A stretch of DNA of 42,213 nt from an uncultured Pelagibacteraceae bacterium (GTDB lineage Bacteria; Pseudomonadota; Alphaproteobacteria; Pelagibacterales; Pelagibacteraceae): NCBI GenBank assembly GCA_902572695.1, contig CACGGZ010000004.1:1-42213 (forward strand). The letters are read 5' to 3'. The stretch's first letter is position 1. The number at the start of each line of letters is the position of its first letter. This document shows positions 9,303 through 34,672 of the stretch, piece by piece. The notes beneath the pieces were generated by a model. That model worked only from the letters and a program-made list of their open reading frames with translations. It did no database searches and was not told the origin of the DNA. The position numbers were made by a program, and so were the translations under genes.

Positions 9303-9342
9303 TTATATATATTATTTATAAATTTAAAAAGGAGATTAACCA

Positions 9343-9714
9343 ATGAGTAATTTTAATAGTGTTAAAAAGTTCATGCAAACTTTCGGCCAAGAAGTAAAAA
9401 AAAATGCCGAATTTCCAGATGAAAAAATTATTAAACTTAGGTTTGAGCTTATAAAAGAGGAGCTGAACGAACTTAAAGATGCAATTGACAAGAGAGATAT
9501 AAAAGAAGTAGCTGATGCTTTAACTGATATTCTTTACGTAACATACGGTGCTGGCCATGCCTTTGGAATTAATTTAGACAAATGTTTTGAAGAGGTGCAA
9601 AACTCAAATATGAGTAAGCTTGGTAATGACGGTAAACCAATTTATAACGAGTTGGGAAAAGTCATGAAAGGACCTAACTATTTTGAACCAAACCTAAAAA
9701 AATTTGTAGCATGA
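9343..9714 (+). CDS. All-alpha NTP pyrophosphohydrolase (MazG/PRA-PH-like)
   Basis: 123 aa; KEELNELKDAI … EVADALTDILYVTYGAGHAFG; AAGGAG ribosome-binding site upstream. Confidence 0.8.
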   Translation: MSNFNSVKKFMQTFGQEVKKNAEFPDEKIIKLRFELIKEELNELKDAIDKRDIKEVADALTDILYVTYGAGHAFGINLDKCFEEVQNSNMSKLGNDGKPIYNELGKVMKGPNYFEPNLKKFVA

Positions 9715-9791
9715 ATGATACTTTTTTTTGGTTATTAATGGGATTAGCTCTTGGACTATCTTTTTATCTGATAGATAAATATATATTTTAA
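9711..9791 (+). CDS. 26-aa single-TM microprotein MNDTFFWLLMGLALGLSFYLIDKYIF
   Basis: ATG overlaps the stop of 9343-9714 (ATGA), suggesting translational coupling; hydrophobic segment; below the ORF-track cutoff. Confidence 0.55.
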   Translation: MNDTFFWLLMGLALGLSFYLIDKYIF

Positions 9792-9799
9792 AATTTTAA

Positions 9800-9833
9800 G
9801 GGGCGTTCTGTTGCCAGGTGCCCCTGGACCCCG
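9800..9833 (-). terminator. Hairpin A (GGGGCACCTGGCAACAGAACGCCCC on minus strand) preceded by CGGGGTCCA
   Basis: 6-bp GC-rich stem, 13-nt loop, between convergent microprotein ORFs; near-identical to the 3' end of the tmRNA coding piece. Confidence 0.65.
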
Positions 9834-9841
9834 ATCTTATT

Positions 9842-9901
9842 CTAACCAAGGAAATGTAATACTACTCCTATTACCATTACTCCAATTATTACTGCTTCCA
9901 T
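9842..9901 (-). CDS. 19-aa hydrophobic microprotein MEAVIIGVMVIGVVLHFLG
   Basis: Strong Shine-Dalgarno AAAGGAG 5 nt before ATG; immediately followed by hairpin A; possible -10 TATACT upstream. Confidence 0.6.
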   Translation of the reverse strand: MEAVIIGVMVIGVVLHFLG

Positions 9902-10008
9902 TTTGTCTCCTTTCACTTTTTAACGTGATTCGTTAGTATACATTATTGTTATATATTTATGAATTTAGATTATTTTAAATTAACAGTTATTCGACACAAA
10001 ATACTAAT

Positions 10009-10131
10009 TTAAAACCCCATATTTGACCAATTATCTTTTCTTTTGAATCTTTTAAGTTCATCTTTCGATGCAGGTCTTAATAAATAAAAAGCCAAAAATA
10101 ATACTACTATAAGTGAAAGAAAAAATTCCAT
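10009..10131 (-). CDS. 40-aa single-TM microprotein MEFFLSLIVVLFLAFYLLRPASKDELKRFKRKDNWSNMGF
   Basis: Complete ORF; N-terminal TM helix then basic tail; TATAAT placed for a very short or absent 5' leader. Confidence 0.55.
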   Translation of the reverse strand: MEFFLSLIVVLFLAFYLLRPASKDELKRFKRKDNWSNMGF

Positions 10132-10186
10132 TAATACAAATTATAAAATACTGTTGTTAAATCAATGCGTCCTAATAAACATTTTT

Positions 10187-10212
10187 AAGGGCGCTCTGTC
10201 TTAGTCGCCCTT
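10187..10212 (-). terminator. Hairpin B (AAGGGCG-ACTAAGACAGAG-CGCCCTT on minus strand)
   Basis: Perfect 7-bp stem directly 3' of the 68-aa ORF; loop shares ACAGARCGCCC with hairpins A and C. Confidence 0.75.
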
Positions 10213-10227
10213 AATCATTTATCTTTA

Positions 10228-10434
10228 TTAACTTTTAAAAAGATCAAGAGCTTTATTTAGAAGCTCTTCAGATTTTCCATGATCTCCATTCGAATGAGCT
10301 TTCATTCCAGCATCATGAAGTTTTTGAGCTTGTTCAATTTTTGATTTAACTTTTCCAGCCATCATCGGACAAGAACCTGCAAAAGCAGAAGATGAAAATA
10401 CAACTAAAGTTAAAACTAATAAAATATTTTTCAT
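10228..10434 (-). CDS. Small secreted protein, 68 aa, unknown function
   Basis: Clear signal peptide MKNILLVLTLVVFSSSAFA|GSCPMM; RBS region (AAAGGAT) upstream; hairpin B downstream. Confidence 0.75.
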   Translation of the reverse strand: MKNILLVLTLVVFSSSAFAGSCPMMAGKVKSKIEQAQKLHDAGMKAHSNGDHGKSEELLNKALDLFKS

Positions 10435-10492
10435 ATTTAATCCTTTCGTTTAAGTATTAAAATAATTAAAAACTGAATTAAATCACTGCGGT

Positions 10493-10506
10493 CTTTTAGC
10501 TAAAAG
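10493..10506 (-). terminator. Perfect palindrome CTTTTAGCTAAAAG at the 3' end of the tmRNA locus
   Basis: 14-nt self-complementary sequence immediately after the coding-piece 3' hairpin. Confidence 0.4.
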
Positions 10507-10736
10507 GGGGCGTTCTGTTGCCAGGTGCCCCGAACCCCGTTTGCTAAATTAACAAAGTTAATTAAGCAGCAAGAGCAAATTTATCATTTGCATTTATAAT
10601 TAGCCCGTTACGTCGGAACTATCTCGAACGAAAGAATAACTTTTAGACATCCGTCGAGCCTAATTCACCCCCGTAAATATTATGGTGGAGGTGGTGGGTA
10701 CTGCCCCCACGTCCGCAATGTTTATTACGAAATTCG
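10506..10736 (-). ncRNA. ssrA: tmRNA, circularly permuted (two-piece type): acceptor piece about 10683-10736, coding piece about 10506-10672
   Basis: Minus strand: …GTGGGGGCAGTACCCACCACCTCCACCA (CCA at 10683-10685), about 10-nt linker, then GGGGGTGAATTAGGCTCGACGG; 7-bp acceptor pairing GGGGGTG/CACCTCC; tag GCA AAT GAT AAA TTT GCT CTT GCT GCT TAA at 10562-10591 = ANDKFALAA*. Confidence 0.93.
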
Positions 10737-10742
10737 TTTATC

Positions 10743-10770
10743 GTTATAGTTAGCAAGCTAACACAAGCAA
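10743..10770 (-). promoter_or_regulatory. Candidate tmRNA promoter TTGCTT-16 nt-TATAAC with a palindrome in the spacer
   Basis: Minus strand TTGCTT GTGTTAGCTTGCTAAC TATAAC; position fits transcription start near 10736. Confidence 0.55.
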
Positions 10771-10848
10771 TATATATCAATTAATTTTAAAAAAAATAAA
10801 AACTTATGTTTGCTTATTAAAAATTGTGATATTACAGCTTAATTAGAT

Positions 10849-11871
10849 ATGTCTAAATTTTCTTATTATGTAGAAATGTATCGTAAAACTCGGATACTCA
10901 AGAATATTCCGAGAATATGGAATTATGTAAAGTATCGAACATTACCCAGAAAATCAAAAATGTTAATTGATAGATACTCTCCTCAGATAGCAAGTATTAT
11001 TTTAACAAAAAGGTGTAATCTAACCTGCTCTTTTTGCTCTGTTGGAAATTCTTTAAATCAAAAAAACTGGAGGGAATCCGAAGCAACTTTAGAAAAAGTT
11101 AAGAGAATTTTTAGAAATCCACTTTTTTCTAAAGCACTTGGAGTTGATCTTTTAGGCGGAGAACCAATGCTTAATAAAGATATCATTCCAATAATAAAAT
11201 GGCTTTCTAACAGAGGTCACTTAATTAATATGAATACTAACGGTCTGAGACTGGATAAAAATATTAATGAATTGAAGGAAGCTGGAATTTCCCGAATAAG
11301 CATTTCGCTTTATGAAGATAATGAAAAATATTTAAATGAAAATCTAGAAAAAATTAATAAAATATTTCCCGTTCATACTAGTATTGTGTTAGCTAAAAAA
11401 GATCTAGAAAACAATCAAGAAAAAATTTTACAAAAAACAACTTTTTTAAAAAAGACAGGTTGCAGAAGTTTGAATGTGATGATTTATAGACCTCAAGGTT
11501 TAAACCCTAATCCAGATGAAATTGTAAGAGAAGATCTTCCTTCTTATATTCAGTTTAAGAAATTAATGGAAAAAAATTTACCAGGATTTGTTAATTGGCC
11601 TGCTGCAATACAAACAAAAAAAATTAAAAAGAGATGTCCGCAAATCTGGCAGAGAATATCTGTAACAATGAAAGGAAACATGGAAATTTGTTGTGGGACA
11701 GAGGAAATTTTGTCTGGACCTAACAGCAATTTCTTTGATTGTGAGGATAAACCTGATGTATTATTTAATCATCCAACCTTAGTTAATTTAAGAGAACAGT
11801 TATTAGATGAAAACGCGGAACCACCAGACATGTGCAAAACTTGCAATTTAATTGGAGACCCTGGATGGTAA
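10849..11871 (+). CDS. Radical SAM protein with C-terminal SPASM-like Cys region
   Basis: CNLTCSFCS (CX3CX2C), LGGEPML, C-terminal CCGTEE … CKTCNL. Confidence 0.88.
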   Translation: MSKFSYYVEMYRKTRILKNIPRIWNYVKYRTLPRKSKMLIDRYSPQIASIILTKRCNLTCSFCSVGNSLNQKNWRESEATLEKVKRIFRNPLFSKALGVDLLGGEPMLNKDIIPIIKWLSNRGHLINMNTNGLRLDKNINELKEAGISRISISLYEDNEKYLNENLEKINKIFPVHTSIVLAKKDLENNQEKILQKTTFLKKTGCRSLNVMIYRPQGLNPNPDEIVREDLPSYIQFKKLMEKNLPGFVNWPAAIQTKKIKKRCPQIWQRISVTMKGNMEICCGTEEILSGPNSNFFDCEDKPDVLFNHPTLVNLREQLLDENAEPPDMCKTCNLIGDPGW

Positions 11872-11874
11872 TTA

Positions 11875-12801
11875 TCAAAAAAATAAATAATTTCCATTTG
11901 GAAGGTTATTTACATCTGGTTTGATTAAATCTTTCTCATTAAAATTTTTTTTAATATCTGAGTGCTCATTTCCAATATAAAATCCCTCATAGTTTTTTTT
12001 GATTAAAAAGTTGAAAATATCCTTTGGTTTATACCCAAACCTATTGCAGTGCATATCAACTATTTCAATAAAAATATTTGGTTTATGTTTTTTTAATACT
12101 TTTTCTGCTCCTAAAAGTAAATTAAGTTCACCCCCTTCTATGTCTGCTTTTATTAGGTTAACTTTCTTTATATCTTCTTGGTCAAATATTTTATCTAAAG
12201 CAAAAACAGGTATTTTTACTTTTTTGCTGAAACCTAAATGCTGTGATGAGGCTGCTGAGCCTCCATCAAAAAAAGGAACTCCAAAATTTGTTTCATGTTC
12301 TTTGTTGCCTAAAGCAAATTTGAAAGTTTTTACATTTGTTGCGTTATTTAGAGATAAGTTGCTTTTAAGCTCATCGTAAGTTTGTTCTATAGGTTCAAAA
12401 GCATATACATTCCCATTATTTCCAACCATTTTTGAAAAATGAAGTGAATACCAACCAAAATTCGCTCCAATATCTAAAATATTCCAACCTTTTTTAACAA
12501 TTTGTTTCAATAAAAAAGTTTCATTCTGTTCATAATTTCCCTCTAAAATTATTAAAGATTTGCTAGCAGATAATTTGTTGTCTGAAATTCTTATCTTAAG
12601 ATTATTACTTAAACTATAAATCTCTTCTGGGTTATTTTTTTTCCATTCATTATATCTTTTTCTTCTTTTAAATTTTTTAAAACTCAAAATATCGATAAGA
12701 AACAAAATCGGAGCAGTGAAGGGTGAAATTATTTTGACGAATATATTACGTAAAATAGGTATGTTATTGATAAATTCTCTAACCTTATTTAACAAATACA
12801 T
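11875..12801 (-). CDS. FkbM-family methyltransferase
   Basis: GWNILDIGANFGWYSLHFSKMVGNNGNVYAFEP, KADIEGGELNLLLGAEKVLKKHKPNIFIEI. Confidence 0.87.
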   Translation of the reverse strand: MYLLNKVREFINNIPILRNIFVKIISPFTAPILFLIDILSFKKFKRRKRYNEWKKNNPEEIYSLSNNLKIRISDNKLSASKSLIILEGNYEQNETFLLKQIVKKGWNILDIGANFGWYSLHFSKMVGNNGNVYAFEPIEQTYDELKSNLSLNNATNVKTFKFALGNKEHETNFGVPFFDGGSAASSQHLGFSKKVKIPVFALDKIFDQEDIKKVNLIKADIEGGELNLLLGAEKVLKKHKPNIFIEIVDMHCNRFGYKPKDIFNFLIKKNYEGFYIGNEHSDIKKNFNEKDLIKPDVNNLPNGNYLFF

Positions 12802-12901
12802 ATGAAATATTTAAAGTTAGCATTTAGAAGAAATTAATTATAAATTAGAAATTAAATTTGTTAAAGAGAATAATATATGTTTTTAATTTATTGCCAATAC
12901 T

Positions 12902-14602
12902 GTGATTAATTCGAGAAAAGATATAATTTCCCATTTGATTGCTTTGTTTATCCTTTCAATTGGATATTTAATATCCTTATTTTTTTTTGGTGAAATTGTC
13001 TTAAATCCTCATGATAATTTAGAGATCGGCCCTATTTATAATAGTATTATTTCAAAAATATATTCAGGAGATTTTGATAGTCTGCTTATTTTACAAGCAG
13101 AAAACTTTAAATGGTTCTTTTTAGATAAGATTTTATATCCAATCAATATTTTTCAACTTTTTTTATCTGACAAGCAGTTTTACTTTTTTGAGGAATTTTT
13201 AAAAAAAATGATTTCTTATTTTTCTTTTTATCTTTTATCAAAATCTTTTACTAAGAACCACCTTAATGCAATGATTGGAGCTATTATCTTCACATCATTA
13301 ATCTATGTTGTTTCTGTTCCCCATTCATACTTTATTCCTTTTGCCCCATATTTTTTATATTTACTATGTCATAAACAGAGTATTAATAAATTTACAATTT
13401 TATTAATTTTTTTTATTGGCTTAAATAGTTCAATTATTTTTGACTTAGTTGCTTTAGCTTTACTTATCCCTCTTGGATTAGTTTTAAGAGAGTATGAAAA
13501 TAATATAAAAGTATATTATCAATTTTTAATCTCTTTTTCTTTAGGTTGTCTCATATCAGGAATTCCAATTTTTTTAACAGTTCTTACTCAAGAGTTAAGT
13601 AGAATTGATTTAGAAAAACCATCATTAATAATTGCTTTTAAGTTTGAAATTTATGAATTAATTAATTTATTCAAAATCGTTAAAATTGACGATATCTTTA
13701 GAGTTCCTATAAAAATTTTATTTATAGTAATTTTTTTTACCTCAATATTTCTCAAAGACAAAGTAATTTTAAAGCTAATAATTTTTTTAATAATTTTTTA
13801 TTTTTTTAAAATAATATTATCTTCTAATATTTTAAATCCGATTTTTATTGAGCCTATCTCTTTTCTAAAAGGATTTAACTTTACTAGGTTTCATTTATTA
13901 TTTCCTTTAATTATTTGCTTGATCTTGGTCTTGAATTTAAAACATTTCGAATTACAAAAATATAAATCCTTTGTATTTTTAATGACAATAATATCGTCAG
14001 TTTTTTTGTATAGTAATTTTACAGTTGTTGAGATTGTCAAATCTTTTACTAATAATAATTTAACAGATAAAAGTCTTAGCAAATTAAAAGAGTTCAATGA
14101 AGATGAGGATATTAGTAATTTTTTTAAATTACTTTTAGATAAAAATAATTATAAAAACCAAAAACTCTCGTATGAATTTGATAGTAAAAATTCTTTCGAT
14201 AAATATTATCGTTATAAAGAATATGGCAGTATAAAAAAATTAGTTGATGGGGGGATAACACTCTCGATTGGCATAGATCCCATGATAGCAGCAATGAATG
14301 GAATTAAGGTTGCAGATGGCTATTATGTTCTTTATTCGGCAGAATATAAAAAAAAGTTTGAAAAAATTATAATAAAAGAATTACAAAATAACATTTCTTT
14401 GTACAATTATTTTAAAAATTGGGGTAATAGAGTTTATGTTTTTTTTGAGGATGAAAAAAATTTAATGGTTGATTTTAATGCAGCAAAGGAGCTAAAAATA
14501 AGTCACGTAATTTCATCCTTTGAATTAATGGATCCAATATTGGAGAAAATTTGTTCGCCCTGTATAAGTAGTGGTCAATTAAGTTTATATAAAATTAAAT
14601 AA
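12902..14602 (+). CDS. Polytopic membrane protein, possibly GT-C-like glycosyltransferase
   Basis: 566 aa with multiple hydrophobic segments, NPHDNLE in the first loop and a soluble C-terminal domain; GTG start. Confidence 0.6.
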   Translation: MINSRKDIISHLIALFILSIGYLISLFFFGEIVLNPHDNLEIGPIYNSIISKIYSGDFDSLLILQAENFKWFFLDKILYPINIFQLFLSDKQFYFFEEFLKKMISYFSFYLLSKSFTKNHLNAMIGAIIFTSLIYVVSVPHSYFIPFAPYFLYLLCHKQSINKFTILLIFFIGLNSSIIFDLVALALLIPLGLVLREYENNIKVYYQFLISFSLGCLISGIPIFLTVLTQELSRIDLEKPSLIIAFKFEIYELINLFKIVKIDDIFRVPIKILFIVIFFTSIFLKDKVILKLIIFLIIFYFFKIILSSNILNPIFIEPISFLKGFNFTRFHLLFPLIICLILVLNLKHFELQKYKSFVFLMTIISSVFLYSNFTVVEIVKSFTNNNLTDKSLSKLKEFNEDEDISNFFKLLLDKNNYKNQKLSYEFDSKNSFDKYYRYKEYGSIKKLVDGGITLSIGIDPMIAAMNGIKVADGYYVLYSAEYKKKFEKIIIKELQNNISLYNYFKNWGNRVYVFFEDEKNLMVDFNAAKELKISHVISSFELMDPILEKICSPCISSGQLSLYKIK

Positions 14603-14605
14603 TTT

Positions 14606-15673
14606 ATGAAGTTAGCAATAAAAAAAAATTTTTGGAAAAACAAAAAAGTTTTTGTAACTGGACATACTGGTTTTAAGGGAAGTTGGCTTTGCATATTTTT
14701 AAGTCAATTAGGCGCAGAGGTAACTGGTTATGCTTTAAAACCAGCAACAAAACCAAGCTTATATAATTTGGCAAATATTAAAAAACTGATTAAAAAATCA
14801 ATTATTGCAGATGTAAGAAATTCAAAAAAACTATATAGCGAAATAAAGAAATCTAAAGCAACTATTTTATTTCACTTAGCAGCACAACCTTTAGTCAGAT
14901 ATTCTTATGAAAATCCAAAAGAAACATTCGATACCAATTTTACGGGAACTTTAAATATTTTAGAGTCTATAAGAAAACTTAATAAAATAAAATCATCTAT
15001 AATAATCACAACAGATAAAGTGTATGATAAGGATTTAATGAAAATTTTTCAGGAGACTGATAATTTGCTTGGACATGATCCTTATGCAGCATCTAAGGTA
15101 TGCGCAGAACATGTTTTTTTTAGTTATATATACTCTTTTTTTAAAAATTCCAAAAACCAAAAGCTTGCTACCGTAAGAGCTGGTAATGTTATTGGTGGGG
15201 GTGATTATTCCGAGGATAGACTTCTACCTGATATTTTCAGATATATAAAAAAGAATAAAAAAATTATTTTAAGAAATCCTAAATCTGTTAGACCTTGGCA
15301 GCATGTTTTAGAGCCACTTAGCGGATATATACTTTTAGCAGAGAAACTTTATAATAAAAAATTGACTAGCTTAGAACCTCACTGGAATTTTGCACCAAAT
15401 ATTTCAAGTTGCAAATCTGTAAAATACGTAGCTGATTTTTATTCAAAAAAACTTAAAGTTCAAATAAAAATTGCTAAAAGCAAAACAAACGAGTTTAAAC
15501 CAGAAAACAGGTTTTTGAGACTAAGCAATTTTAAAGCTAGAAAATACCTTAATTGGCATCCACGTTGGAATTTAAACAAGTCACTTAAAAAAATTTTAGA
15601 ATGGAACATTAATACAAAAAAAGGTAATCATCTTAAAGTTTGTAAATCGCAAATAGAGGATTACTTAAAATAA
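14606..15673 (+). CDS. rfbG: CDP-glucose 4,6-dehydratase
   Basis: FWKNKKVFVTGHTGFKGSWLCIFLSQLGAEVTGYAL; HLAAQPLVRYSYENPKETFDTNFTGTLN; TDKVYD; HDPYAASKVCAE; RPWQHVLEPL. Confidence 0.93.
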   Translation: MKLAIKKNFWKNKKVFVTGHTGFKGSWLCIFLSQLGAEVTGYALKPATKPSLYNLANIKKLIKKSIIADVRNSKKLYSEIKKSKATILFHLAAQPLVRYSYENPKETFDTNFTGTLNILESIRKLNKIKSSIIITTDKVYDKDLMKIFQETDNLLGHDPYAASKVCAEHVFFSYIYSFFKNSKNQKLATVRAGNVIGGGDYSEDRLLPDIFRYIKKNKKIILRNPKSVRPWQHVLEPLSGYILLAEKLYNKKLTSLEPHWNFAPNISSCKSVKYVADFYSKKLKVQIKIAKSKTNEFKPENRFLRLSNFKARKYLNWHPRWNLNKSLKKILEWNINTKKGNHLKVCKSQIEDYLK

Positions 15674-15674
15674 T

Positions 15675-16886
15675 ATGAGAATGAAAAAGATATCATACGG
15701 TAAAAATATTTATAATTATAAGGAAATTAATGCTGTTCTTAAGCAATTAAAAAAAACGACACAAATGGGTGTATCAGTGGACTCTTTTGAAAAAAAAATT
15801 GCTAACCTGTTTTCAAAAAAATATGGCTTAATGGTTAATTCAGGGTCTTCTGCCATAATATTAGCTTTAAAAGTTTTAAATTTTCCAAAAGGAAGCGAAA
15901 TTATAACTCCGTGCCTAAATTTTGGAACTGCTGTTTCATCGATAATGTTATGTGATTTAAAACCAATATTTGTAGATTGTGAAATTGAAACTTTACAAAT
16001 TGACCCAAAAAAAATAGAAAAAAAAATTACAAAAAAAACTAAAGCTTTAATGATACCAAATTTAATTGGCAATATTCCAGATTGGGAAAAAATTAAAAAA
16101 ATTGCTAAAAAACATAAATTAAAAGTTATTGAAGACTCCGCAGATACTTTAGGCGCCACAATTAAAAAAAAATCTACTGGCTTTTATAGTGATTTATCAA
16201 TTACAAGTTTTTATGGATCTCATGTAATAAGTTGTGCAGGTAATGGAGGTATCTTTTTAACAAATTCAAAAGATTTTCACTCAAAAGCAAAAGTTCTCAG
16301 AAGTTGGGGCAGAATGTCTACATTAATAAAAGACTCAGAAAATATTAACAAAAGACTAGGGATTAAACTTAAAGGTATTGAATATGACAGAAAATTCATT
16401 TTTTCTGAAGTTGGATATAATTTTGAACCTTCCGAGATAGGGGCTTCATTTGGACTTGAGCAACTTAAAAAATTAAAATATTTTACTAAAATAAGAAATA
16501 AAAATTATAATTTACATTATAATTTCTTTTCAAAATTTAAAAAATTTTTTATTTTGCCAAAAATGAATAAAGGGGTTAAAACTAACTTTCTTGCTTACCC
16601 TATAATAATAAAAAATAACAAACATTTCACAAAAAAAAATCTTCAATTATTTCTTGAGAAAAATAATATTCAAACAAGACCTATTTTTACAGGAAATATA
16701 TTAAGGCACCCTGCTTTTGCTTCTCTTACATCTAAGAGAAATAAATTAAATGAATTTAAATGCTCAGACTATATTATGAAAAATGGGTTACTTATCGGAT
16801 GTCACCAAGGCCTTTCCAGCAAAAACGTTTTTCAGATTCACAAAGTAATAGTGAAATTTTTTAAATCAAGAAAGATACATTTCTAG
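15675..16886 (+). CDS. DegT/DnrJ/EryC1/StrS-fold PLP/PMP enzyme, probable sugar 3-dehydratase (E1/ColD-like)
   Basis: 403 aa; VIEDSADTLGA; SFYGSHVISCAGNGG with His183 at the usual Lys position; no Cys in the WGR…EYDRKF segment. Confidence 0.85.
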   Translation: MRMKKISYGKNIYNYKEINAVLKQLKKTTQMGVSVDSFEKKIANLFSKKYGLMVNSGSSAIILALKVLNFPKGSEIITPCLNFGTAVSSIMLCDLKPIFVDCEIETLQIDPKKIEKKITKKTKALMIPNLIGNIPDWEKIKKIAKKHKLKVIEDSADTLGATIKKKSTGFYSDLSITSFYGSHVISCAGNGGIFLTNSKDFHSKAKVLRSWGRMSTLIKDSENINKRLGIKLKGIEYDRKFIFSEVGYNFEPSEIGASFGLEQLKKLKYFTKIRNKNYNLHYNFFSKFKKFFILPKMNKGVKTNFLAYPIIIKNNKHFTKKNLQLFLEKNNIQTRPIFTGNILRHPAFASLTSKRNKLNEFKCSDYIMKNGLLIGCHQGLSSKNVFQIHKVIVKFFKSRKIHF

Positions 16887-16892
16887 TTAAAA

Positions 16893-18059
16893 ATGAGTGG
16901 TACTTGTAAACTTTGCTTTTCAAAATTAAACAAAAGTCCTATCCTTATCCTTGATGATATGCCGAGGGCTGCACAATTTTTTCCTGATCCAAAACAATTT
17001 CAAGAGGACAAAGGAGTTTCTTTAAAAGTTTTTCAATGTGGTAAGTGTGGTTTAGTTCAATTAATTTCTGAGCCAGTCGAATATTTTAAAAATGTTATAA
17101 CGGCCGCAACGCTTTCAGGAGATGCTAGAAATTCTCGTTTAAGTCAGATGAAAAATTTTAGAGAAAAATACAATCTCTTAAACAAAAAAGTGTTAGAGAT
17201 TGGTTGTGCTTCAGGTAGTATGCTGGATGTTATCAAAGAGTCAGGGATGTCTGCTTTTGGGGTTGAAGCATCAAAGGACTCAGTTGATGAAGGTTTAAAA
17301 AAAGGAAGAAAAATAATTCATGGATTTATTGGTGATTTAAAAAAAATCTCTCATGGGCCTTACGATGCTTTTGTATCATTTAATTATCTAGAGCATATGC
17401 CAGAACCTACAAAAGTTTTAAATATTATAAATAATAATTTGTCTTCCAATGGTTTAGGACTAGTTACTGTGCCGAATTTTGACTTCTTGCTTAAAACAAA
17501 ATGTTTTTATGAATTTGTGCCAGATCATTTATCCTATTTCACAAAAGAGACTATTTCTAATATATTTTTAAATTGTGGATTTTTCATAAAAGAGATTTCA
17601 TTAATAAATAATGAGAATGACATTTTAGTGATTGTAGAAAAATCAAAAAAATCAAAAGAAATTAATTTTAAAAAGCCAAAAGCAATTAATTTAAGCTCAG
17701 GTATAGCAGAGATTGAAAGTCTTAAAACAGAATTGAAATCCTTAGTAAAAAAATATAAAGACCAAAATAAAAAAATTGCTATTTGGGGTGCAGGACACAG
17801 AACATTAGCATTGTTATCAATAAGTAATTTAGTCGAAATAGAATATATTGTTGACTCAGCAAAATTTAAGCAAGGAAAATACTCACCAGTTTTGCACACA
17901 AAAATATTTTCACCAGAAATTTTGAAAAAGAATGAAATTGACCTCTTGATAGTAATGGTGCCTGGAATTTACCCTGATGAAGTAATCAAAACAGCGAAAA
18001 ATATGAATTTAAAGGCAGATATTGCAAAATTAAGAAATAATAAAATTGAATTTATATAA
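16893..18059 (+). CDS. Class I SAM-dependent methyltransferase of the sugar C-methyltransferase type (Zn-binding N-terminus, Rossmann-like C-terminus)
   Basis: CKLC…CGKCGLVQL N-terminal Cys motif; VLEIGCASGSMLDVIKESGMSAFGVEAS; C-terminal KIAIWGAGHRTLALLS. Confidence 0.85.
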   Translation: MSGTCKLCFSKLNKSPILILDDMPRAAQFFPDPKQFQEDKGVSLKVFQCGKCGLVQLISEPVEYFKNVITAATLSGDARNSRLSQMKNFREKYNLLNKKVLEIGCASGSMLDVIKESGMSAFGVEASKDSVDEGLKKGRKIIHGFIGDLKKISHGPYDAFVSFNYLEHMPEPTKVLNIINNNLSSNGLGLVTVPNFDFLLKTKCFYEFVPDHLSYFTKETISNIFLNCGFFIKEISLINNENDILVIVEKSKKSKEINFKKPKAINLSSGIAEIESLKTELKSLVKKYKDQNKKIAIWGAGHRTLALLSISNLVEIEYIVDSAKFKQGKYSPVLHTKIFSPEILKKNEIDLLIVMVPGIYPDEVIKTAKNMNLKADIAKLRNNKIEFI

Positions 18060-18080
18060 AATGCAAAATAGTATCTAACT

Positions 18081-19157
18081 ATGGATAATAAAGACTTACC
18101 AAATAATAAGATTTCAGCAGTTGTTAAACCTAGAATTTATCACCAAAAAAAACAGAAACTTGAGGATTTGGTGCCACTACAAACACCTTTTTCTGTTCAT
18201 ATTGATGTATGCAGTCTATGTAATTTTAAATGTAGTTTTTGTTTTCAAGCAGATATTTTCGGTAAAAAAGATAAAAAATTTCCTCATGGAATGATGAAAA
18301 TGGATTTGTTTAAAAAAACAGTTGAAGATTTAAAAGCTTTTCCAGATAGAATTAAAAAAATTAAGATTGGGAACCATGGAGAACCCACATTGCACCCTGA
18401 GTTGCCAGAATTTATAAAATTTGCAAGAGAAGCAGATGTTGCAGATACAGTTGAAGTGTTCACCAACGGATCAAAGTTAAACCCAGAATTAAATAAAAGA
18501 TTAGTAGACTCGGGTTTACAAAGAATAAATATTTCGTTGGAAGGTCTTTCAAGTGAGAGATACCTAAAAGTTGCTGCAGCCAAAATTAATTGGGAAGAAT
18601 TTGTGGGAAATATAAAAAATTTATATGAGTACAGTAGAAAAAAAGGTGAACTCAATATTTATGTCAAAATTGTCAATAATGCCAGTGAACTTAAAGGAGA
18701 AACTGTTTATTCTATGACAGAGGAAGAAAAAAATAAGTTTTATGATACATTCGGTAATATTGCTGATGAAATTTACATAGAAAAAATTGTACCTCAATGG
18801 GCAGAGACCCAAGAGGGAAAACAAAACGATGTAGAATTAACAGGTATGTATGATCAAAAAACCGTAAGATATAAAAAGATTTGTCCTTTCATATTTATGT
18901 ATCTGCATATTAATCATGACGGCATAGTAAGCCCTTGCACATTAGATTGGCCCAGAGATGTCGCAATAGGAGATGCAAAAAAGGAGTCAGCAACCGATAT
19001 CTGGAAAGGTAAAACGTTAAAGGATTTACAAATAGCTCAATTAGAGGGAAAAAGGAATGAAATAAAATTTTGCAAAGATTGCTCGGCCCCAATGGTTTGT
19101 GTTGAGGAAAATCTAGATAACCATGCACAAGATCTTTTAAAGAGGATTAAAAGATAA
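18081..19157 (+). CDS. Radical SAM/SPASM protein
   Basis: CSLCNFKCSFCFQ, GNHGEPTLHPELPEF, C-terminal CPFIFMYLHINHDGIVSPCTLDW … CKDCSAPMVC. Confidence 0.9.
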   Translation: MDNKDLPNNKISAVVKPRIYHQKKQKLEDLVPLQTPFSVHIDVCSLCNFKCSFCFQADIFGKKDKKFPHGMMKMDLFKKTVEDLKAFPDRIKKIKIGNHGEPTLHPELPEFIKFAREADVADTVEVFTNGSKLNPELNKRLVDSGLQRINISLEGLSSERYLKVAAAKINWEEFVGNIKNLYEYSRKKGELNIYVKIVNNASELKGETVYSMTEEEKNKFYDTFGNIADEIYIEKIVPQWAETQEGKQNDVELTGMYDQKTVRYKKICPFIFMYLHINHDGIVSPCTLDWPRDVAIGDAKKESATDIWKGKTLKDLQIAQLEGKRNEIKFCKDCSAPMVCVEENLDNHAQDLLKRIKR

Positions 19158-19169
19158 TCAATAATTATA

Positions 19170-20042
19170 ATGAAAATAATGATAACAGGTACCAATGGAT
19201 TTATTGGTAGAAATGTTAAAGAATACTTAGAAAAAATATATAAAGATATCCACTCTCCTAAACGTCAACAGTTGAATTTACTAGATGCAAAAGCAGTCGA
19301 AACTTACCTTAAGAAAAATAACTTTGATGTAATCATTCACTGTGGAATCACTTTAAATTCAATTGAACAAAATTTAAGTATGTTTTTTAATATTGAAAAA
19401 CACTCAAATTATTTTGGAAGACTAATTTGCATCGGATCAGGAGCAGAATTTGACTCTAGGTCGTATAAGCCTCGAATGAATGAAAAATATTTTGGAAATT
19501 CTATTCCTCCTAAAACTGACATATATGGTTTCTCGAAATATATGATAGCTAAGAATATTGAAGAAAAAAAAAGGAACATATTTAATCTGAGGGTTTTTGG
19601 CATATTTGGAAAATATGAAGATTACAGAAGAAGGTTTATTTCGAATAATATCTGCAGATCGTTATGTGGCATGAACATTTCAATAAATCAAAATGCTCTA
19701 TTTGATTATCTCTATATTGATGATTTTAACAAAATTGTTGAGATGTTTCTGGCAAACAATCCAAAAAAAAGGACATATAATGTTTGTACAGGCAAATCAG
19801 TTGATTTTATAACTTTGGCCAAAATAATTAATAATCTAGATGGTAGAGATAAAAATATAGAAATTTTGAAAAGCGGCATAAAAACAGAGTATTCAGGTGA
19901 TAATTCTCTGTTATTATCTGAATATGAAAATATCACATTCACAGATCCAGAAAAATCTGTTGCAGATCTCTACAACTGGTATAAACACTCAAGTAAATTG
20001 AACTTTGATGAAAAATTATTTGATACATGGATAAAAAACTAA
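19170..20042 (+). CDS. NAD(P)-dependent epimerase/dehydratase/reductase (extended SDR)
   Basis: MITGTNGFIGRNV; DIYGFSKYMIAK (YxxxK); FDYLYIDDF. Confidence 0.85.
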   Translation: MKIMITGTNGFIGRNVKEYLEKIYKDIHSPKRQQLNLLDAKAVETYLKKNNFDVIIHCGITLNSIEQNLSMFFNIEKHSNYFGRLICIGSGAEFDSRSYKPRMNEKYFGNSIPPKTDIYGFSKYMIAKNIEEKKRNIFNLRVFGIFGKYEDYRRRFISNNICRSLCGMNISINQNALFDYLYIDDFNKIVEMFLANNPKKRTYNVCTGKSVDFITLAKIINNLDGRDKNIEILKSGIKTEYSGDNSLLLSEYENITFTDPEKSVADLYNWYKHSSKLNFDEKLFDTWIKN

Positions 20043-21340
20043 TCAAACCCAAAGAACTAAAATTTGTAAATTCTCTTAAGAATAAACCTATAATTATTTG
20101 GGGCGCAAGGATGACAGGTCTAGGTTTACTCAGATTTTCAAAAAAACATAATCTAAAATTAGTTGGATATGTTGACGGAGATCCATCTTTAACTGACAAG
20201 ATGATAGGAGAACATCAAATAAAATTACCTAGTGAAATAAAAAATTTGAAAAAAGAATATCCAGAAGCTGTTGTTGTTGTCGCTGCTGCACTCAAAGAAG
20301 ACGAAATAATAACGTCCATAAAAAAAATGGGCATAGAGGAAAAAAATATTATTAATTATAGCGAATTTAGTGAATGTTTTTTTACTATTGATATAGTTGG
20401 TCAATGTAGTCTTAAATGTCCCTCTTGCGCCCAAAGTTTGGCAGAGATCAAAAATCCTATGGGAACTATGAAGCTTGAGGATTTTAAAAAGGTAATCGCT
20501 AAAATTAAAAATGAAGTAGATCTTGTAACTCATGTAGCTCTTTATAGTTGGGGTGAACCTTTGTTACATAAAGACCTTCATTTGATAATAGATCACCTAC
20601 ACAAAGAGGGAATAGCGGCAGCAGTGTCTTCACACTTATCTATTCCATCTGAGTCACAAATACAGAATTTAATTAAGGCCGCACCCGAGTATTTAAAAAT
20701 TTCTACATCTGGTTTCTATCCAGACGCTTATAACTCAACGCACACGGGTGGAAATGTAAATTTAGTAAAATCTAATATGTATAAAATTAAGTACTTAATG
20801 GAGAGATACAATTCAAAAATTTACGTAGATGTAAATTATCATTTGTACAAAAATAACGTTGGCGAAGATTTAGAAATGATGGAGAAGCTCTGTGATGAAC
20901 TAGGTTTTGGTCTATCAACAACTTATCCAGTGGTTTTTCCAGTTGAAAGATGTATGGATTATTTAGAAGGAAAGAAAAATGGCAAAGATCTATCTGAATT
21001 ATCCAAACTTCTACTAGTAAATATAGACGAAGGTTTGGAAATAACTAAAAATTACCGAAATCAACCTTGTAGATACTTAACTAATCAAATAAATATTAAT
21101 TGGGATAGAAGCGTCCCACTTTGTTGTGTTACTTTTGACAGACAAAAAAACTCATCAATTATTTCAAAAGATTTTTTAAAAGAGTCACTTAAATCGCTTG
21201 ATGAAAAAAAAAGGGATCATTCTCTTTGCTCAAAGTGTACAAAATTAGGAATACCTCCATATCAACTCGGTGTGAATCTTAAAGGTTGGGATGAAAAAGC
21301 AAAAGAAAATAGTGAAATTTTTGCTAAAAAACTTCGATAA
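20027..21340 (+). CDS. Fusion of Rossmann-like domain and radical SAM/SPASM-like protein
   Basis: N-term KPIIIWGARMTGLGLLRFSKKHNLKLVGYVDGD; then VGQCSLKCPSCAQS (CX3CX2C), SWGEPLLHKDL, C-term CSKCTKLG; 16-bp overlap with upstream gene. Confidence 0.85.
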   Translation: MDKKLIKPKELKFVNSLKNKPIIIWGARMTGLGLLRFSKKHNLKLVGYVDGDPSLTDKMIGEHQIKLPSEIKNLKKEYPEAVVVVAAALKEDEIITSIKKMGIEEKNIINYSEFSECFFTIDIVGQCSLKCPSCAQSLAEIKNPMGTMKLEDFKKVIAKIKNEVDLVTHVALYSWGEPLLHKDLHLIIDHLHKEGIAAAVSSHLSIPSESQIQNLIKAAPEYLKISTSGFYPDAYNSTHTGGNVNLVKSNMYKIKYLMERYNSKIYVDVNYHLYKNNVGEDLEMMEKLCDELGFGLSTTYPVVFPVERCMDYLEGKKNGKDLSELSKLLLVNIDEGLEITKNYRNQPCRYLTNQININWDRSVPLCCVTFDRQKNSSIISKDFLKESLKSLDEKKRDHSLCSKCTKLGIPPYQLGVNLKGWDEKAKENSEIFAKKLR

Positions 21341-21378
21341 AAAAATTTTCACTAGGACAAAATTTATTTAGTAAGTTC

Positions 21379-23163
21379 ATGAGTCAAATAAAATATAGCG
21401 ATTATTTTTGTAAATCATTAAAGGAAATTGGTTACACTCATTGCTTTTTATTACAAGGCGGTTCTATAATGCATTTAGTTAATAGTGCATCAAAATATTT
21501 TAAAGTAATTCCTTTTTTACATGAGCACTGTGCAACTATTGCATCAGAATATTTTAATAAGGCAAATAAAGGAAAAAAAAATAAATCTTGGGTATTAGTT
21601 GCAGCAGGTCCTGGCTTGACAAATTCAATTTCTGCCATCTCCGGAGCTTTTTTAGAGTCACGTGAGCTTTTGGTTGTAAGTGGACAAAGTAAAACATCTG
21701 ATTTAAGACTTCATAATAAAAACAATATTAGACAAACGGGAATTCAACAAAATGATGGTGTCGGTATTGCCAAAAAAATTACTAAATTTTCAAAAACGTT
21801 TTACACCCCAGAAAAATTTGAGAATATAAACAAATATGTTTCATTATCATTTTCGGGACGTAATGGACCAGTGTTATTTGAAGTTCCTATTGATATTCAA
21901 GGTAAATTTGTAAAACGTTTTAAAGCTAAAAAAATAAAAAGTATAAATACAAAAAAAATTATATCCACTAAAAAAAAATCAAAAATTTTAAAACTAATAA
22001 AAAAATCAAAAAAAATCTCTATATTGCTAGGAGGGGGAATTGAAAAAGAAGGCTTTTCAAAAATAAAAAAAAAACTTTTAAACACCAATCTAGCTTTATT
22101 TACAACGTGGAATGGAGCTGATTTACTGGCTGAAAATGATAAAAATAATTTTGGGAGACCAAATACTTGGGGTCAAAGATACGCAAATATTTTACTACAA
22201 AACTCAGACTTATTGATTTCGATCGGGTCAAGTCTGGGTATTCAGCAAACTGGTTTTAATTATCAGTCTTTCGTGAAAAGGGGAAAAATAATTAATGTGG
22301 ATATTGATAAAAACCAATTAAATAAATCGTTTCCCAATTCAGAAATTAAAATTGAATGTGATGCATTAGATTTTTTAAATTATTTAATCAAAATTATAGA
22401 CGCTAAAACTAAAAATAGAAATAAATTATGGATTCAAAAATGTAAAGTTATAAAAAAACTTCTACCGACTAATGAAAAATACAATAATTATACTGGAAAA
22501 AAATTTATTTCTCCTTACGATTTTTATATCAAAATATCAAAAATTCTTGGAGATAACGATAACATTTGCCCTTGTTCAAGTGGAGGAGCAGAAACTACTT
22601 TTTTTCAAAGCTTTAAGTTTAAAAAAAATCAAACCTGTATAAATAACAAAGCGCTAGCATCCATGGGATACGGTTTAGCTGGTGCTATTGGTTTGGCATT
22701 ATCTAATCAAAAAAAAAGAACATGCTTATTTGAGGGAGATGGTGGGTTCACACAAAATTTGCAAGAAATTGGTATAGCTAAAAAAAATAATCTTAACCTA
22801 AAAATATTTATCTTTTTTGACAATGGTTATGCATCTATTAGATTAACACAAAAAAATTATTTCAAAGGAAAATATATAGGCTGTGATTTTAAAACTGGTT
22901 TAATGTTTCCAAATTGGAAAAATTTTTTTAAATCTTACGGTATAGAAACTTTTGTTTTGCCTAAAAATTTTCATAATAATAAAAAATTTTTAAAATTTTT
23001 TAATGACAAAAAACTACGTGTATTTATAGTTCCTATTGACCCTGAACAAACCTATTTTCCAAAAATTTCAAGCAAAATATTAAAATCTGGCACATTGTCA
23101 TCAGACTCTATTGATAATATGACTCCAAAAATTAATATTAATTTTGAAAAAATTTTAAACTGA
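21379..23163 (+). CDS. ThDP-dependent enzyme, acetolactate synthase-like
   Basis: 594 aa; HEHCATIASEY (catalytic Glu position), AAGPGLTNSISAISGAFLESRELLVVSGQ, FEGDGGFTQNLQEIGIAKKNNLNLKIFIFFDNGYASI. Confidence 0.88.
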   Translation: MSQIKYSDYFCKSLKEIGYTHCFLLQGGSIMHLVNSASKYFKVIPFLHEHCATIASEYFNKANKGKKNKSWVLVAAGPGLTNSISAISGAFLESRELLVVSGQSKTSDLRLHNKNNIRQTGIQQNDGVGIAKKITKFSKTFYTPEKFENINKYVSLSFSGRNGPVLFEVPIDIQGKFVKRFKAKKIKSINTKKIISTKKKSKILKLIKKSKKISILLGGGIEKEGFSKIKKKLLNTNLALFTTWNGADLLAENDKNNFGRPNTWGQRYANILLQNSDLLISIGSSLGIQQTGFNYQSFVKRGKIINVDIDKNQLNKSFPNSEIKIECDALDFLNYLIKIIDAKTKNRNKLWIQKCKVIKKLLPTNEKYNNYTGKKFISPYDFYIKISKILGDNDNICPCSSGGAETTFFQSFKFKKNQTCINNKALASMGYGLAGAIGLALSNQKKRTCLFEGDGGFTQNLQEIGIAKKNNLNLKIFIFFDNGYASIRLTQKNYFKGKYIGCDFKTGLMFPNWKNFFKSYGIETFVLPKNFHNNKKFLKFFNDKKLRVFIVPIDPEQTYFPKISSKILKSGTLSSDSIDNMTPKININFEKILN

Positions 23164-23176
23164 AGTAAGATAAATT

Positions 23177-23977
23177 ATGAATTTACTCGAGAAAGATATG
23201 CTCACTGTTTTAAAATCTCTTAGAGATGATTTTGGTGTCATAGGTATTAAAGCTGAGTTTGAGGCGGAAGGTACAAGATTAGACGAGTTACTAAGGTTAG
23301 TAGAAATTGTAAGAAAATTAAATTTAAAATTAGGTATCAAAATCGGTGGCTGCGAGGCAATGAAAGATTTAATGGAATGCAAGCAGTTTGGTACTGATTA
23401 CATCATCGCGCCCATGGTTGAGACTGATTATGCTTTAAAAAAATTCATAGAAGCCAAAAACAAAATCTACGATAAAGAAGAGAGAAAAAATACAGAATTT
23501 TTAATAAATGTAGAAACTGTTACTACAAAAAATAATTTAGACAAGATAGTAAAAACAAATAATACCTATAAAAAAGACGAAAATATAAATGGTTGGGTTT
23601 TTGGAAGAGTTGATTACACTTTATCACAAGGTCTAAATAGAGAGGACATTAATAACAGCGATCAGATTACAAACTCAATACTTGATGTAGCAAAAAAAGC
23701 AAAAGAAAATAATTTGAATTTAGTTGTTGGTGGAGCTATCTCAGTAGATGCATTATCGATTTTAAAAAAAATTGAAAAAATTAAGCTTAATAGATTTGAA
23801 ACGAGAAAAGTAATTTTTTCCTCAGAAGCACTTAAAATTGGAAATCTAAAAGAGGGCATGTTGAAAGCAGTAAACTTCGAACTACTGTGGCTTAAAAATA
23901 AAAAAAATTATTATGGCTCAATATTTCAAGAAGATGATAAGAGAATAGATATGCTCTCTAAAAGGTGGAAGGTTTAG
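23177..23977 (+). CDS. HpcH/HpaI aldolase/citrate lyase-like TIM-barrel protein
   Basis: GVIGIKAEFEAEG, IKIGGCEAMKDL, DYIIAPMVETDYALKKF, LINVETVT. Confidence 0.7.
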   Translation: MNLLEKDMLTVLKSLRDDFGVIGIKAEFEAEGTRLDELLRLVEIVRKLNLKLGIKIGGCEAMKDLMECKQFGTDYIIAPMVETDYALKKFIEAKNKIYDKEERKNTEFLINVETVTTKNNLDKIVKTNNTYKKDENINGWVFGRVDYTLSQGLNREDINNSDQITNSILDVAKKAKENNLNLVVGGAISVDALSILKKIEKIKLNRFETRKVIFSSEALKIGNLKEGMLKAVNFELLWLKNKKNYYGSIFQEDDKRIDMLSKRWKV

Positions 23978-23993
23978 TCTATAATAATAAATT

Positions 23994-24920
23994 ATGAAAA
24001 AAATTAGTATTGTAACACCTACTTTTAACGAGGAAGATAATATAGAGAAGCTATCTAAGTGTATCTCGGATGAGATGGAAAAACACAATTATGATTATGA
24101 ACATATAATTATTGATAACTCATCTGAAGACAAAACAATTCCAATTATAAAAAAAATTGCTGAAAAAGATAAAAAAGTAAAAATTATAATTAATGCCAGA
24201 AATTTTGGTCACGTGAGATCGCCTTTTCATGGAATACTCCAATCAAGCGGTGATGCAACAATTTTGTTAAATTCTGACTTTCAAGAACCACCTGAACTGA
24301 TATCCGATTATATAAAAGAGTGGGAAAAAGGTTTTAAAATAGTTCTTGGACAAAGGTCTGCCTCAGATACTAATCCTATGACTGATTTAGGAAGATCTTT
24401 TTTCTATAAATTTATAAAAAAAATCTCAGAGGTTCCTCTTATGGAAAGAACCTCAGGTACAGGATTATTTGATAAAGAAATAATTAACCAATTAAAAAAA
24501 ATTAGTGATCCTTATCCATATTTTAGAGGATTATTATCGGAAATATCTAGCGACATAAAACTGGTAAAATTTCATCAATCAAAGCGCAAGGGTGGAAAAA
24601 CTAAAAATAACTTTTATACTTTATACGATACTGCCGTGTTAGGTATTATTAAACACTCTAAAGTACCTCTTAGATTAATTACATTTATTGGTTTTTTTGC
24701 AAGTATAGTTAGTATATTGATAGCTATAACTTTTTTATTTTATAAGCTACTTTTTTGGGAGTCGTTTGAAGTTGGTATTGCTCCTTTAATCATAGGACTA
24801 TTTAGTGTGGCTTCAATTCAAATATTTTTATTAGGATTTATTGGGGAATATGTCATGCAAATTCTTACTCATTCTAGAAATTTACCTCTCGTGGTTGAAA
24901 AAGAGAGAATTAATTTTTAA
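23994..24920 (+). CDS. Family 2 glycosyltransferase, polyprenyl-phosphate sugar transferase type (GtrB/ArnC/DPM1-like)
   Basis: KISIVTPTFNEEDNIEKL, NARNFGHVRSPFHGIL, LLNSDFQEPPELI; two C-terminal TM segments. Confidence 0.92.
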   Translation: MKKISIVTPTFNEEDNIEKLSKCISDEMEKHNYDYEHIIIDNSSEDKTIPIIKKIAEKDKKVKIIINARNFGHVRSPFHGILQSSGDATILLNSDFQEPPELISDYIKEWEKGFKIVLGQRSASDTNPMTDLGRSFFYKFIKKISEVPLMERTSGTGLFDKEIINQLKKISDPYPYFRGLLSEISSDIKLVKFHQSKRKGGKTKNNFYTLYDTAVLGIIKHSKVPLRLITFIGFFASIVSILIAITFLFYKLLFWESFEVGIAPLIIGLFSVASIQIFLLGFIGEYVMQILTHSRNLPLVVEKERINF

Positions 24921-24967
24921 ATTGAAAAACTAAAAAATTAATATAAAAAATTTAAAATAAACCTAAT

Positions 24968-25915
24968 ATGAAATTAACTTCAGAGCAAAAAAAAGAAATT
25001 TTAGATCAGCAATCTCAAAAAAATACGACTAAAAGAGTAACCTCTCCAGCTTTAGAACATATTCTTTATGAGGCTATTCCTGTTCTTGACCATGGTTTTG
25101 TAAGAGTTGTTGATTATATGGGTGATGATACATCAATAGTTCAATCTGCAAGAGTTTCATACGGCAAGGGTACAAAAAAAGTTTCTACAGATGCTGGTTT
25201 AATAAAATATTTAATGAGACATAGACACAGCACCCCTTTTGAAATGTGTGAAATAAAATATCACGTCAAACTTCCAATTTTTATTGCACGACAATGGATC
25301 AGACATAGAACAGCAAATGTTAATGAATATTCAGCCAGATATTCTATTTTAGATAAAGAATTTTATATTCCATCGAGGGAAAACCTTGCGGCTCAATCGC
25401 AGAGTAACAGACAAGGAAGAGGAAGTTTAATAAATGGAACTCAAGCTGATGAAATTTTGACTTTATTAAGAGAAGATGCTGAAAGAAATTACAAAAATTA
25501 TGAAAAAATGTTAAACGAAACTTATGATGGGGAAACTATAGATACTCAAAAACAAGGGCTTGCCAGAGAACTTGCCAGAATGAATTTAACTCTTAATTCT
25601 TATACTCAGTGGTATTGGAAAACCGATTTGCTAAATCTACTAAATTTTTTATCTCTCAGAGCTGACAGCCATGCCCAATATGAGATAAGAGCATATGCAA
25701 ATGTTATGATCGATACTCTAAAAAAATGGGTTCCGACAACATACGAAGCGTTTATGGATTACAGAGTTGGTGGAATGGAACTTTCATCAAAGGGAAAAAT
25801 AGTTATTTCAAAAATGATCAAAGGAGAAACTTGTGATCATGAGGGCTCAGGTTTATCTAAAAGAGAGTGGAATGAGCTTATGACCTCTTTTGGTTTTGAA
25901 AATAAAATTGTTTAA
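24968..25915 (+). CDS. thyX: Flavin-dependent thymidylate synthase
   Basis: [15 protein letters not shown] ThyX motif; [12 protein letters not shown]. Confidence 0.97.
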
Positions 25916-33101: not shown

Positions 33102-33649
33102 TGTCAAAATCTAAATCAGCTTACAGTACTCCTGGTAAAAGCGGTAAAATTGAAAGACATATCATTGTCGTTTGGGTTGATAACGAAGCAGGAGTTCTTG
33201 CTAGAATTGCAGGACTTTTTTCAGGCAGAGGTTATAACATTGAGTCTTTGGCAGTAGCAGAAGTAGATAAAAAAAAACATATTTCTAGAATTACAATTGT
33301 TACTGAGGGAACACCTGAAGTTATAGAACAGATAAATTTACAATTAAGAAAATTAGTTCCAGTCCATAAAGTTGCAGATTTCAAACGAACTGATAAGGAT
33401 ATTTTATTTAGAGAATTAGCATTATTTAAAATCCTTGCAAATTCTAAAAAACAAGAAAAAATAAAAAAAATTTGTAAAAAATATAATCCAGTTGTTTTAG
33501 ATAAATCAAGTAAATCTATAGTAATTCAAGTTACTGCCTTAAGAGCAGAAATTGATAAATTAGCACTTGATTTAAGAAAATATGGCCTTATAAGCACATC
33601 TAGAACAGGAGCTGTTGCGATGACCAAGGGATCAAAAATATTTAATTAA
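33098..33649 (+). CDS. ilvH: Acetolactate synthase small subunit
   Basis: ACT domain VDNEAGVLARIAGLFSGRGYNIESL. Confidence 0.96.
   Translation: MMSKSKSAYSTPGKSGKIERHIIVVWVDNEAGVLARIAGLFSGRGYNIESLAVAEVDKKKHISRITIVTEGTPEVIEQINLQLRKLVPVHKVADFKRTDKDILFRELALFKILANSKKQEKIKKICKKYNPVVLDKSSKSIVIQVTALRAEIDKLALDLRKYGLISTSRTGAVAMTKGSKIFN

Positions 33650-34672
<1,023 letters not shown>

Follow-up and report, generated by a model that had tools for sequence, protein, structure and literature searches.

Which sugar could be built by a run of genes in a SAR11 chromosome that joins enzymes of a CDP-sugar (cytidine diphosphate sugar) pathway to a thiamine diphosphate (ThDP) carboligase, an aldolase and radical S-adenosylmethionine (SAM) proteins? 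The run occupies positions 14606-23977 of the window, by which we mean the whole stretch of DNA analysed, an entire contig of 42,213 bases from a genome of 604,761 bases that is 59% complete. A first-pass annotation had placed there, in one tract, genes for the CDP-glucose 4,6-dehydratase RfbG, a DegT-fold enzyme, a C-methyltransferase, a short-chain dehydrogenase/reductase (SDR), a ThDP enzyme and an HpcH-like aldolase, and these identities were firmly confirmed by open reading frame (ORF) calling and Pfam/NCBIfam searches. All genes claimed for the tract are unbroken ORFs on a single strand, as seen from ORF calling and translation, and they are tightly packed, with gaps of about 0-40 bp and one small overlap. 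The functional island is wider than this tract, at about 10849-24920, and takes in a DUF6044 membrane protein and a family 2 glycosyltransferase (GT2). On balance we think it probable that the island directs the synthesis, by a CDP-sugar route, of an undescribed deoxysugar branched at C-4, with a donor made by the aldolase.

The YerE-like carboligase

The ThDP enzyme is encoded at 21379-23163 on the forward strand and contains the N, M and C domains of the TPP_enzyme families. Its best match in the PDB is 8rph (1e-66), which is JanthE, an enzyme described as YerE-like (PMC12188165), and the runner-up is an acetolactate synthase (7e-46). The best NCBIfam model is also that of acetolactate synthase, and the protein could accordingly be taken for a paralogue of this synthase, or for some other central-metabolic decarboxylase, that has landed in a sugar island. 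The score on that model is however 215.6 bits, far under the cut-off of 538, and JanthE outscores any acetohydroxyacid synthase. Moreover, a genuine and complete ilvB-ilvN-ilvC set is present in the window at 31335-34672 and serves as an internal control. In two trees (a quick one of 107 sequences and a careful one of 41), where the window sequence is long-branched and biased in composition, the enzyme groups with those of loci L084, L065, L066, L085, L086, L087 and L092 at 100/100. This clade sits within an assemblage of JanthE and other sugar-cluster enzymes, apart from SAR11 IlvB and 5ahk, with IlvB excluded at 100/100. The first-pass annotation had held that its proposal would fall if the enzyme clustered with acetolactate synthases; it clusters apart from them.

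The alignment agrees with this placement. The catalytic Glu (E49), D454 and G455 of the GDG motif, P561 and K562 are invariant, and the PK signature corresponds to the hotspot K567 of JanthE. The longer C-terminal signature, PK...G.S...M-S/T-P, is common to the window enzyme and sugar-cluster enzymes only and is absent from the IlvB of the window. In addition, the gene is co-located with deoxy-keto-sugar genes both in the window and in the loci of its relatives. By sequence grouping, the enzyme can firmly be called YerE-like and not an acetolactate synthase, and a paralogue of the latter seems to us highly improbable. More than 200 YerE-like enzymes have been predicted, with products mostly unknown, and one of them, ErwE, reportedly accepts 4-hydroxy-2-oxo acids but not pyruvate (PMC12247030). 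An older SAR11 survey listed an acetolactate synthase among the surface genes of hypervariable region 2 (HVR2) of HTCC1062 (PMC2217521), and this may be another YerE-like enzyme.

The aldolase and the proposed source of the donor

The gene that follows 13 bp after that of the carboligase (23177-23977, forward strand) encodes an HpcH/HpaI-type pyruvate aldolase, the predicted maker of a 2-oxo acid donor. The protein scores 32.8 bits on HpcH_HpaI (PF03328; cut-off 25), and its AlphaFold2 model (pLDDT 95) has HpaI as the top rank in Foldseek. In the profile search the matches were HpaI (5e-5) and YfaU (4e-4), an aldolase of 2-keto-3-deoxy sugars, and the alignment keeps both metal ligands, Glu (E113) and Asp (D146). 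Lys55 is invariant and, judging by its motif, may occupy the place of the substrate-binding Arg70 of HpaI, a strand that lies outside the profile match. The motifs KAEFEAEG, KIGGCEA and ETRK are conserved in about 30 aldolase homologues.

The first-pass annotation had set the aldolase and the radical SAM proteins aside as extras outside the pathway, a view that is not borne out in that form, as both are recurrent partners in other loci. Among 80 named YerE-like loci, the 56 of at least 15 kb were used for counts. HpcH homologues occur in 16 of these 56, spread over many phyla, and in none of 14 RfbH loci without a ThDP gene (p=0.03). They lie one to three genes from the ThDP gene in 24 of 27 loci, several of which have a gene for a haloacid dehalogenase-type (HAD) phosphatase between the two. 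An SDR of the window type accompanies them in 10 of the 16 loci, compared with 3 of the 40 loci without HpcH (p=4e-5). The distance matrices of the ThDP and HpcH proteins are also correlated (r=0.69, 27 loci, p=2e-4), more so than those of the ThDP protein and RfbG (0.48); common ancestry of entire clusters may explain part of this correlation. RfbF/G/H, the C-methyltransferase, radical SAM, HAD and GT2 families showed no significant enrichment in YerE-like loci over the RfbH controls, so the statistical weight rests on the HpcH and SDR links only.

This pairing and co-variation, the fold and profile of the aldolase, the ulosonate-type neighbours described below and the donors of ErwE together suggest that the HpcH-like aldolase supplies the donor of the ThDP enzyme. 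An aldolase that makes a 2-oxo acid donor may give a branch exceeding the two carbons of yersiniose, and the earlier claim of a two-carbon branch from pyruvate does not hold as it was stated, since an aldolase as partner speaks for a longer donor. That claim follows strict yersiniose logic, by which the ThDP enzyme would use pyruvate directly to form a two-carbon acetyl branch, the SDR would reduce it, and the aldolase and radical SAM proteins would be used for a different sugar within the same glycan. This would agree with the use of pyruvate by YerE (PMC12247030) and with the many YerE-like loci that have no HpcH gene. It agrees poorly with the closeness of the HpcH and ThDP genes here and elsewhere, with the co-variation of the pair, and with the presence of HpcH beside the nearest ThDP relatives (L065, L066, L084, L085 and L087), and we consider it somewhat unlikely.

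Elsewhere in SAR11, HpcH genes without a ThDP gene adjoin CTP_transf_3 genes, which encode a CMP-ulosonate-type cytidylyltransferase (L079:9167-10611 and L080:8860-10303, the latter locus also having PseB and a PseC-like gene). The aldolase family may therefore also make ulosonic acids for activation with cytidine monophosphate (CMP), and such neighbours fit HpcH as a maker of 3-deoxy-2-oxo acids. On plasmids, tblastn with the HpcH protein gave three records, two of Novosphingobium humi and one of Ilyobacter, and tblastn with the ThDP protein gave nothing at 1e-50. Neither was retained as a related cluster: the other genes of the Novosphingobium humi locus are unmatched to the reference set, save a GT2, and the Ilyobacter gene belongs to a catabolic operon. 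A literature search found no paper pairing HpcH with a ThDP enzyme in a CDP-glucose or O-antigen setting, although the primary reports describing the ErwE donor, the identification of JanthE and the in silico survey of YerE enzymes lay outside it.

Co-occurrence of the gene set in unrelated genomes, the second condition on which the first-pass annotation had staked its proposal, is firmly established. The top whole-genome relatives of the ThDP enzyme (G504 and G465, 48-49% identity) come from loci that both hold RfbG, an RfbH-type DegT protein, a cytidylyltransferase and HpcH (51-57%), and RfbF/G/H adjoin the ThDP relatives in most loci. Loci L067 and L073 contain the C-methyltransferase, radical SAM protein 1, the SDR, HpcH and the ThDP enzyme, together with HAD and Nudix genes, and L073 also has radical SAM protein 2. 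Orthologues of radical SAM protein 1 at 55% or more were found in only three of 399 genomes (G258, G210 and G338), and all three have the SDR, HpcH and ThDP genes nearby. The third such locus, L197, holds the SDR, HpcH, radical SAM protein 2, RfbF, RfbG, RfbH and the ThDP enzyme inside 18 kb. As 18 of the other genomes have a ThDP match, such a complete overlap would have a chance probability of about 8e-5 if genomes are treated as independent. A search of 150 relatives placed radical SAM protein 1 in the genome of the window only, which marks the island as rarely acquired in this group. It is also a mosaic: its ThDP-HpcH pair is of the L065/L066/L084 type, whereas the closest counterparts of its C-methyltransferase, radical SAM and SDR genes are in L067, L073 and L197.

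In L199 (5579-15817), two genes resembling radical SAM protein 1 (33-35%) lie with C-methyltransferase-like genes, RfbG and RfbF and no ThDP gene, so that members of this family also accompany CDP-sugar pathways without the ThDP branching step.

An AroB-like cyclase (TIGR04425 in L065) adjoins the YerE-like gene in L065, L066, L084, L085, L092, L119, L121, L128, L135, L156 and L160, often with a short SDR and in many cases with RfbF/G/H. As L160 belongs to Bradyrhizobium canariense, this kind of cluster may make bradyrhizose, whose genes have been called unknown (PMC4743980). Since several of these loci carry the closest ThDP relatives, the product of the island could likewise be a bradyrhizose-like sugar, bicyclic and with a carbocycle. 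The island is however without an AroB-like cyclase or a short SDR of that type, which makes such a product very unlikely.

The proposed route from CDP-glucose

The surest family call of the island is that of RfbG (14606-15673, forward strand), which scores 426.6 bits on the TIGR02622 equivalog model of NCBIfam, over the curated cut-off of 278.45. Its PDB matches are the solved CDP-glucose 4,6-dehydratases 1wvg/1rkx (E=3e-96 or better than 3e-91, the former value for 1wvg), and from its sequence it can firmly be assigned to this enzyme family.

The next gene (15675-16886, forward strand; PF01041) encodes a DegT-fold pyridoxamine phosphate (PMP) enzyme, a predicted 3-dehydratase. It has a His where the catalytic Lys stands and lacks the four cysteines of the Fe-S cluster, which are present in 43-45 of 52 homologues; the earlier description of an Fe-S-less dehydratase was thus right, and this type of the enzyme is firm. 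In E1 and ColD, His in place of Lys accompanies 3-dehydration instead of transamination. The protein scores 288.8 bits on the RfbH model, below the cut-off of 423. In a careful tree of its own family it forms a 100/100 clade with L035 (same order) and L121 (Legionellaceae) outside E1 and ColD, in a topology with long branches and an uncertain deeper branching order. Given its own clade, the His and the missing cysteines, it most likely works as ColD does, yet belongs to neither family. The clade (motif S[FML]Y[AG][SA]H; 15675-16886 and L225-L238) occurs in 22 of 150 genomes of the SAR11 order. An association of this clade with YerE-like enzymes, an idea taken from L035 and L121, was dropped, as the clade is common in SAR11 without a ThDP gene. 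The separate clade, and its occurrence in SAR11 also apart from RfbG, would allow the protein to be a 3- or 4-aminotransferase or another pyridoxal phosphate (PLP) enzyme, and the acceptor of the ThDP enzyme would then keep O-3 or its replacement, as in CDP-4-keto-6-deoxyglucose itself or in an amino sugar carrying a C-methyl group. The His, which the window protein shares with each of the 14 other SAR11 members checked, argues against this and leads us to regard it as unlikely.

The remaining proteins of the tract could act on the sugar or on its branch. The C-methyltransferase (16893-18059, forward strand), of TylC3/TcaB9 type, matches the D-mycarose 3-C-methyltransferase 4rv9 (E=8e-17) and passes the Methyltransf_23 (PF13489) and Methyltransf_14 (PF08484) models, with 24.9 bits on Methyltransf_13 (cut-off 31.3). 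Three radical SAM proteins had been placed in the tract. Two of them are indeed inside (18081-19157 and 20027-21340, forward strand, both PF04055), and the third lies upstream at 10849-11871 on the forward strand (PF04055; 47% identity to a gene of the L067 cluster). The two inside have the CxxxCxxC motif and auxiliary-cluster cysteines, with invariant cluster Cys, and of these two only the first passes the SPASM model (PF13186). The AlphaFold2 model of this radical SAM protein 1 (pLDDT 80) has BtrN as the nearest fold, with BlsE and DesII high and peptide maturases close behind. BtrN, BlsE and DesII have cyclitols and sugars as substrates. Radical SAM protein 2 begins with a domain (20027-20345) similar to the C-terminal one of the C-methyltransferase two genes upstream (hhalign 96%, E=4e-9, few sequences). 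The extended SDR (19170-20042, forward strand; PF01370), a predicted ketoreductase or epimerase and a recurrent partner of HpcH and the ThDP enzyme, matches dTDP-4-dehydrorhamnose reductase 3sc6 (E=4e-8). The GT2 (23994-24920, forward strand; PF00535) scores 172 bits on PgfS and 96 bits on ArnC-type NCBIfam models, both under the cut-off, and has a homologue in 27 of the 56 YerE-like loci. PgfS and ArnC-type enzymes act on polyprenyl phosphate, and a transfer of the sugar to a lipid carrier is predicted here.

From these assignments we infer the donor, the order of reactions and the product as follows. RfbG would make CDP-4-keto-6-deoxyglucose, from which the His-type Fe-S-free PMP enzyme would take off O-3 in the manner of ColD. 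The HpcH-like aldolase would join pyruvate and an aldehyde to a 4-hydroxy-2-oxo acid, and the YerE-like enzyme, whose class is well supported, would decarboxylate this putative donor and add the acyl unit to the C-4 ketone, giving a tertiary alcohol. The SDR would then reduce the newly formed ketone, the C-methyltransferase and radical SAM enzymes may further modify the sugar or the branch, and the GT2 would load the finished sugar onto a polyprenyl carrier on its way to the cell surface, a destination that the GT2 and DUF6044 neighbours make plausible.

Several points weigh against this pathway. All enzyme roles are predicted from sequence, structure model and gene context, and the ThDP trees have JanthE as their YerE-like reference, YerE and ErwE not being on them. 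About 70% of the YerE-like loci have no HpcH within the stretch examined, and the RfbH control set is small (14 loci). Other SAR11 have HpcH homologues with no ThDP gene, and the island lacks the HAD phosphatase that elsewhere often stands between HpcH and ThDP. The His-type DegT clade is found in SAR11 in varied sugar contexts, mostly without ThDP and also apart from RfbG. Moreover, no RfbF, which would supply CDP-glucose, was over the cut-off in the recovered part of the genome.

A broader proposal can be offered tentatively, as one that we find possible and yet lean against. HpcH-type aldolases and YerE-like ligases would work as a widespread relay: a 3-deoxy-2-oxo acid made by the former would be decarboxylated and its chain attached to a CDP-keto sugar by the ThDP enzyme, so that many phyla would produce branched sugars of higher carbon number. 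In SAR11 the relay would be joined by C-methylation, by radical SAM steps and by a 3-dehydratase that has no Fe-S cluster and represents a new clade, and the product there would, with these additions, be a sugar type not yet described.

Genomic site and comparison with known systems

The flanks of the island and its gene content are typical of Pelagibacterales (fumC, mazG, tmRNA, thyX, mrp, hflKC, degP, ilvBNC, leuA and mreBCD). ThyX and fumC, which stand on either side, have 76-87% and 82-86% identity, respectively, to same-genus genomes, and the island therefore lies in a SAR11 chromosome and is no stray contaminant. The fumC-thyX interval (9302-24968 in the window, with mazG and tmRNA) is a variable site of about 0.4 to 17 kb across Pelagibacterales, often with sugar genes. 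Its left border is the tmRNA gene ssrA (10471-10778, reverse strand; ARAGORN, tag ANDKFALAA), which is within the interval in all five further same-genus genomes checked. In G002 the interval has an RfbG 67% identical to that of the window, with different partners. The DUF6044 polytopic membrane protein (12902-14602, forward strand; PF19510, 114 bits), possibly a periplasmic sugar transferase, has counterparts at the same site in other SAR11 (L200 and L203). An FkbM-family methyltransferase (11875-12801, PF05050) is on the reverse strand, which leaves its membership of the pathway uncertain.

The island most likely builds an undescribed branched sugar, extending a known kind of sugar pathway by a donor-making step that is concrete and testable. 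The HpcH-YerE-like pairing gives a concrete idea of an unusual donor source and a way to predict clusters with longer branches. It also places branched-sugar chemistry, radical SAM steps included, at a variable site of a streamlined ocean bacterium, a site at which surface sugars could influence how phages and grazers recognise the cell.

In Yersinia pseudotuberculosis, the pathway to yersiniose A consists of RfbF, RfbG, E1/E3, YerE and YerF. The island shares with this pathway a CDP-glucose 4,6-dehydratase, a His-type 3-dehydratase-like PMP enzyme, a YerE-like ThDP ligase and an SDR in one cluster. It differs in a dehydratase without an Fe-S cluster, in the extra HpcH, C-methyltransferase and radical SAM proteins, and in that no RfbF was seen. 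The DegT protein shares the His with both ColD (GDP-4-keto-6-deoxymannose 3-dehydratase) and E1/RfbH, the absence of an Fe-S cluster with the former and the CDP-sugar context with the latter; it is without the [2Fe-2S] Cys ligands of E1/RfbH and is separated from each at 100/100 in the tree. The aldolase has the TIM-barrel of the class II pyruvate aldolases HpaI and YfaU and their metal ligands E113 and D146 in matching motifs, whereas its identity to them is about 13%, its TM about 0.6 and its conserved motifs its own. JanthE (8rph, from Janthinobacterium), a ketone-accepting carboligase, is the nearest solved structure to the ThDP enzyme, although it has a CDG motif in place of the usual GDG, shares about 26% identity and lies on a separate branch. 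ErwE of Pectobacterium atrosepticum (erwiniose) is likewise YerE-like, and the hydroxylated longer 2-oxo acids that it uses are, likened by their description, of the type that an HpcH-class aldolase would produce (PMC12247030).

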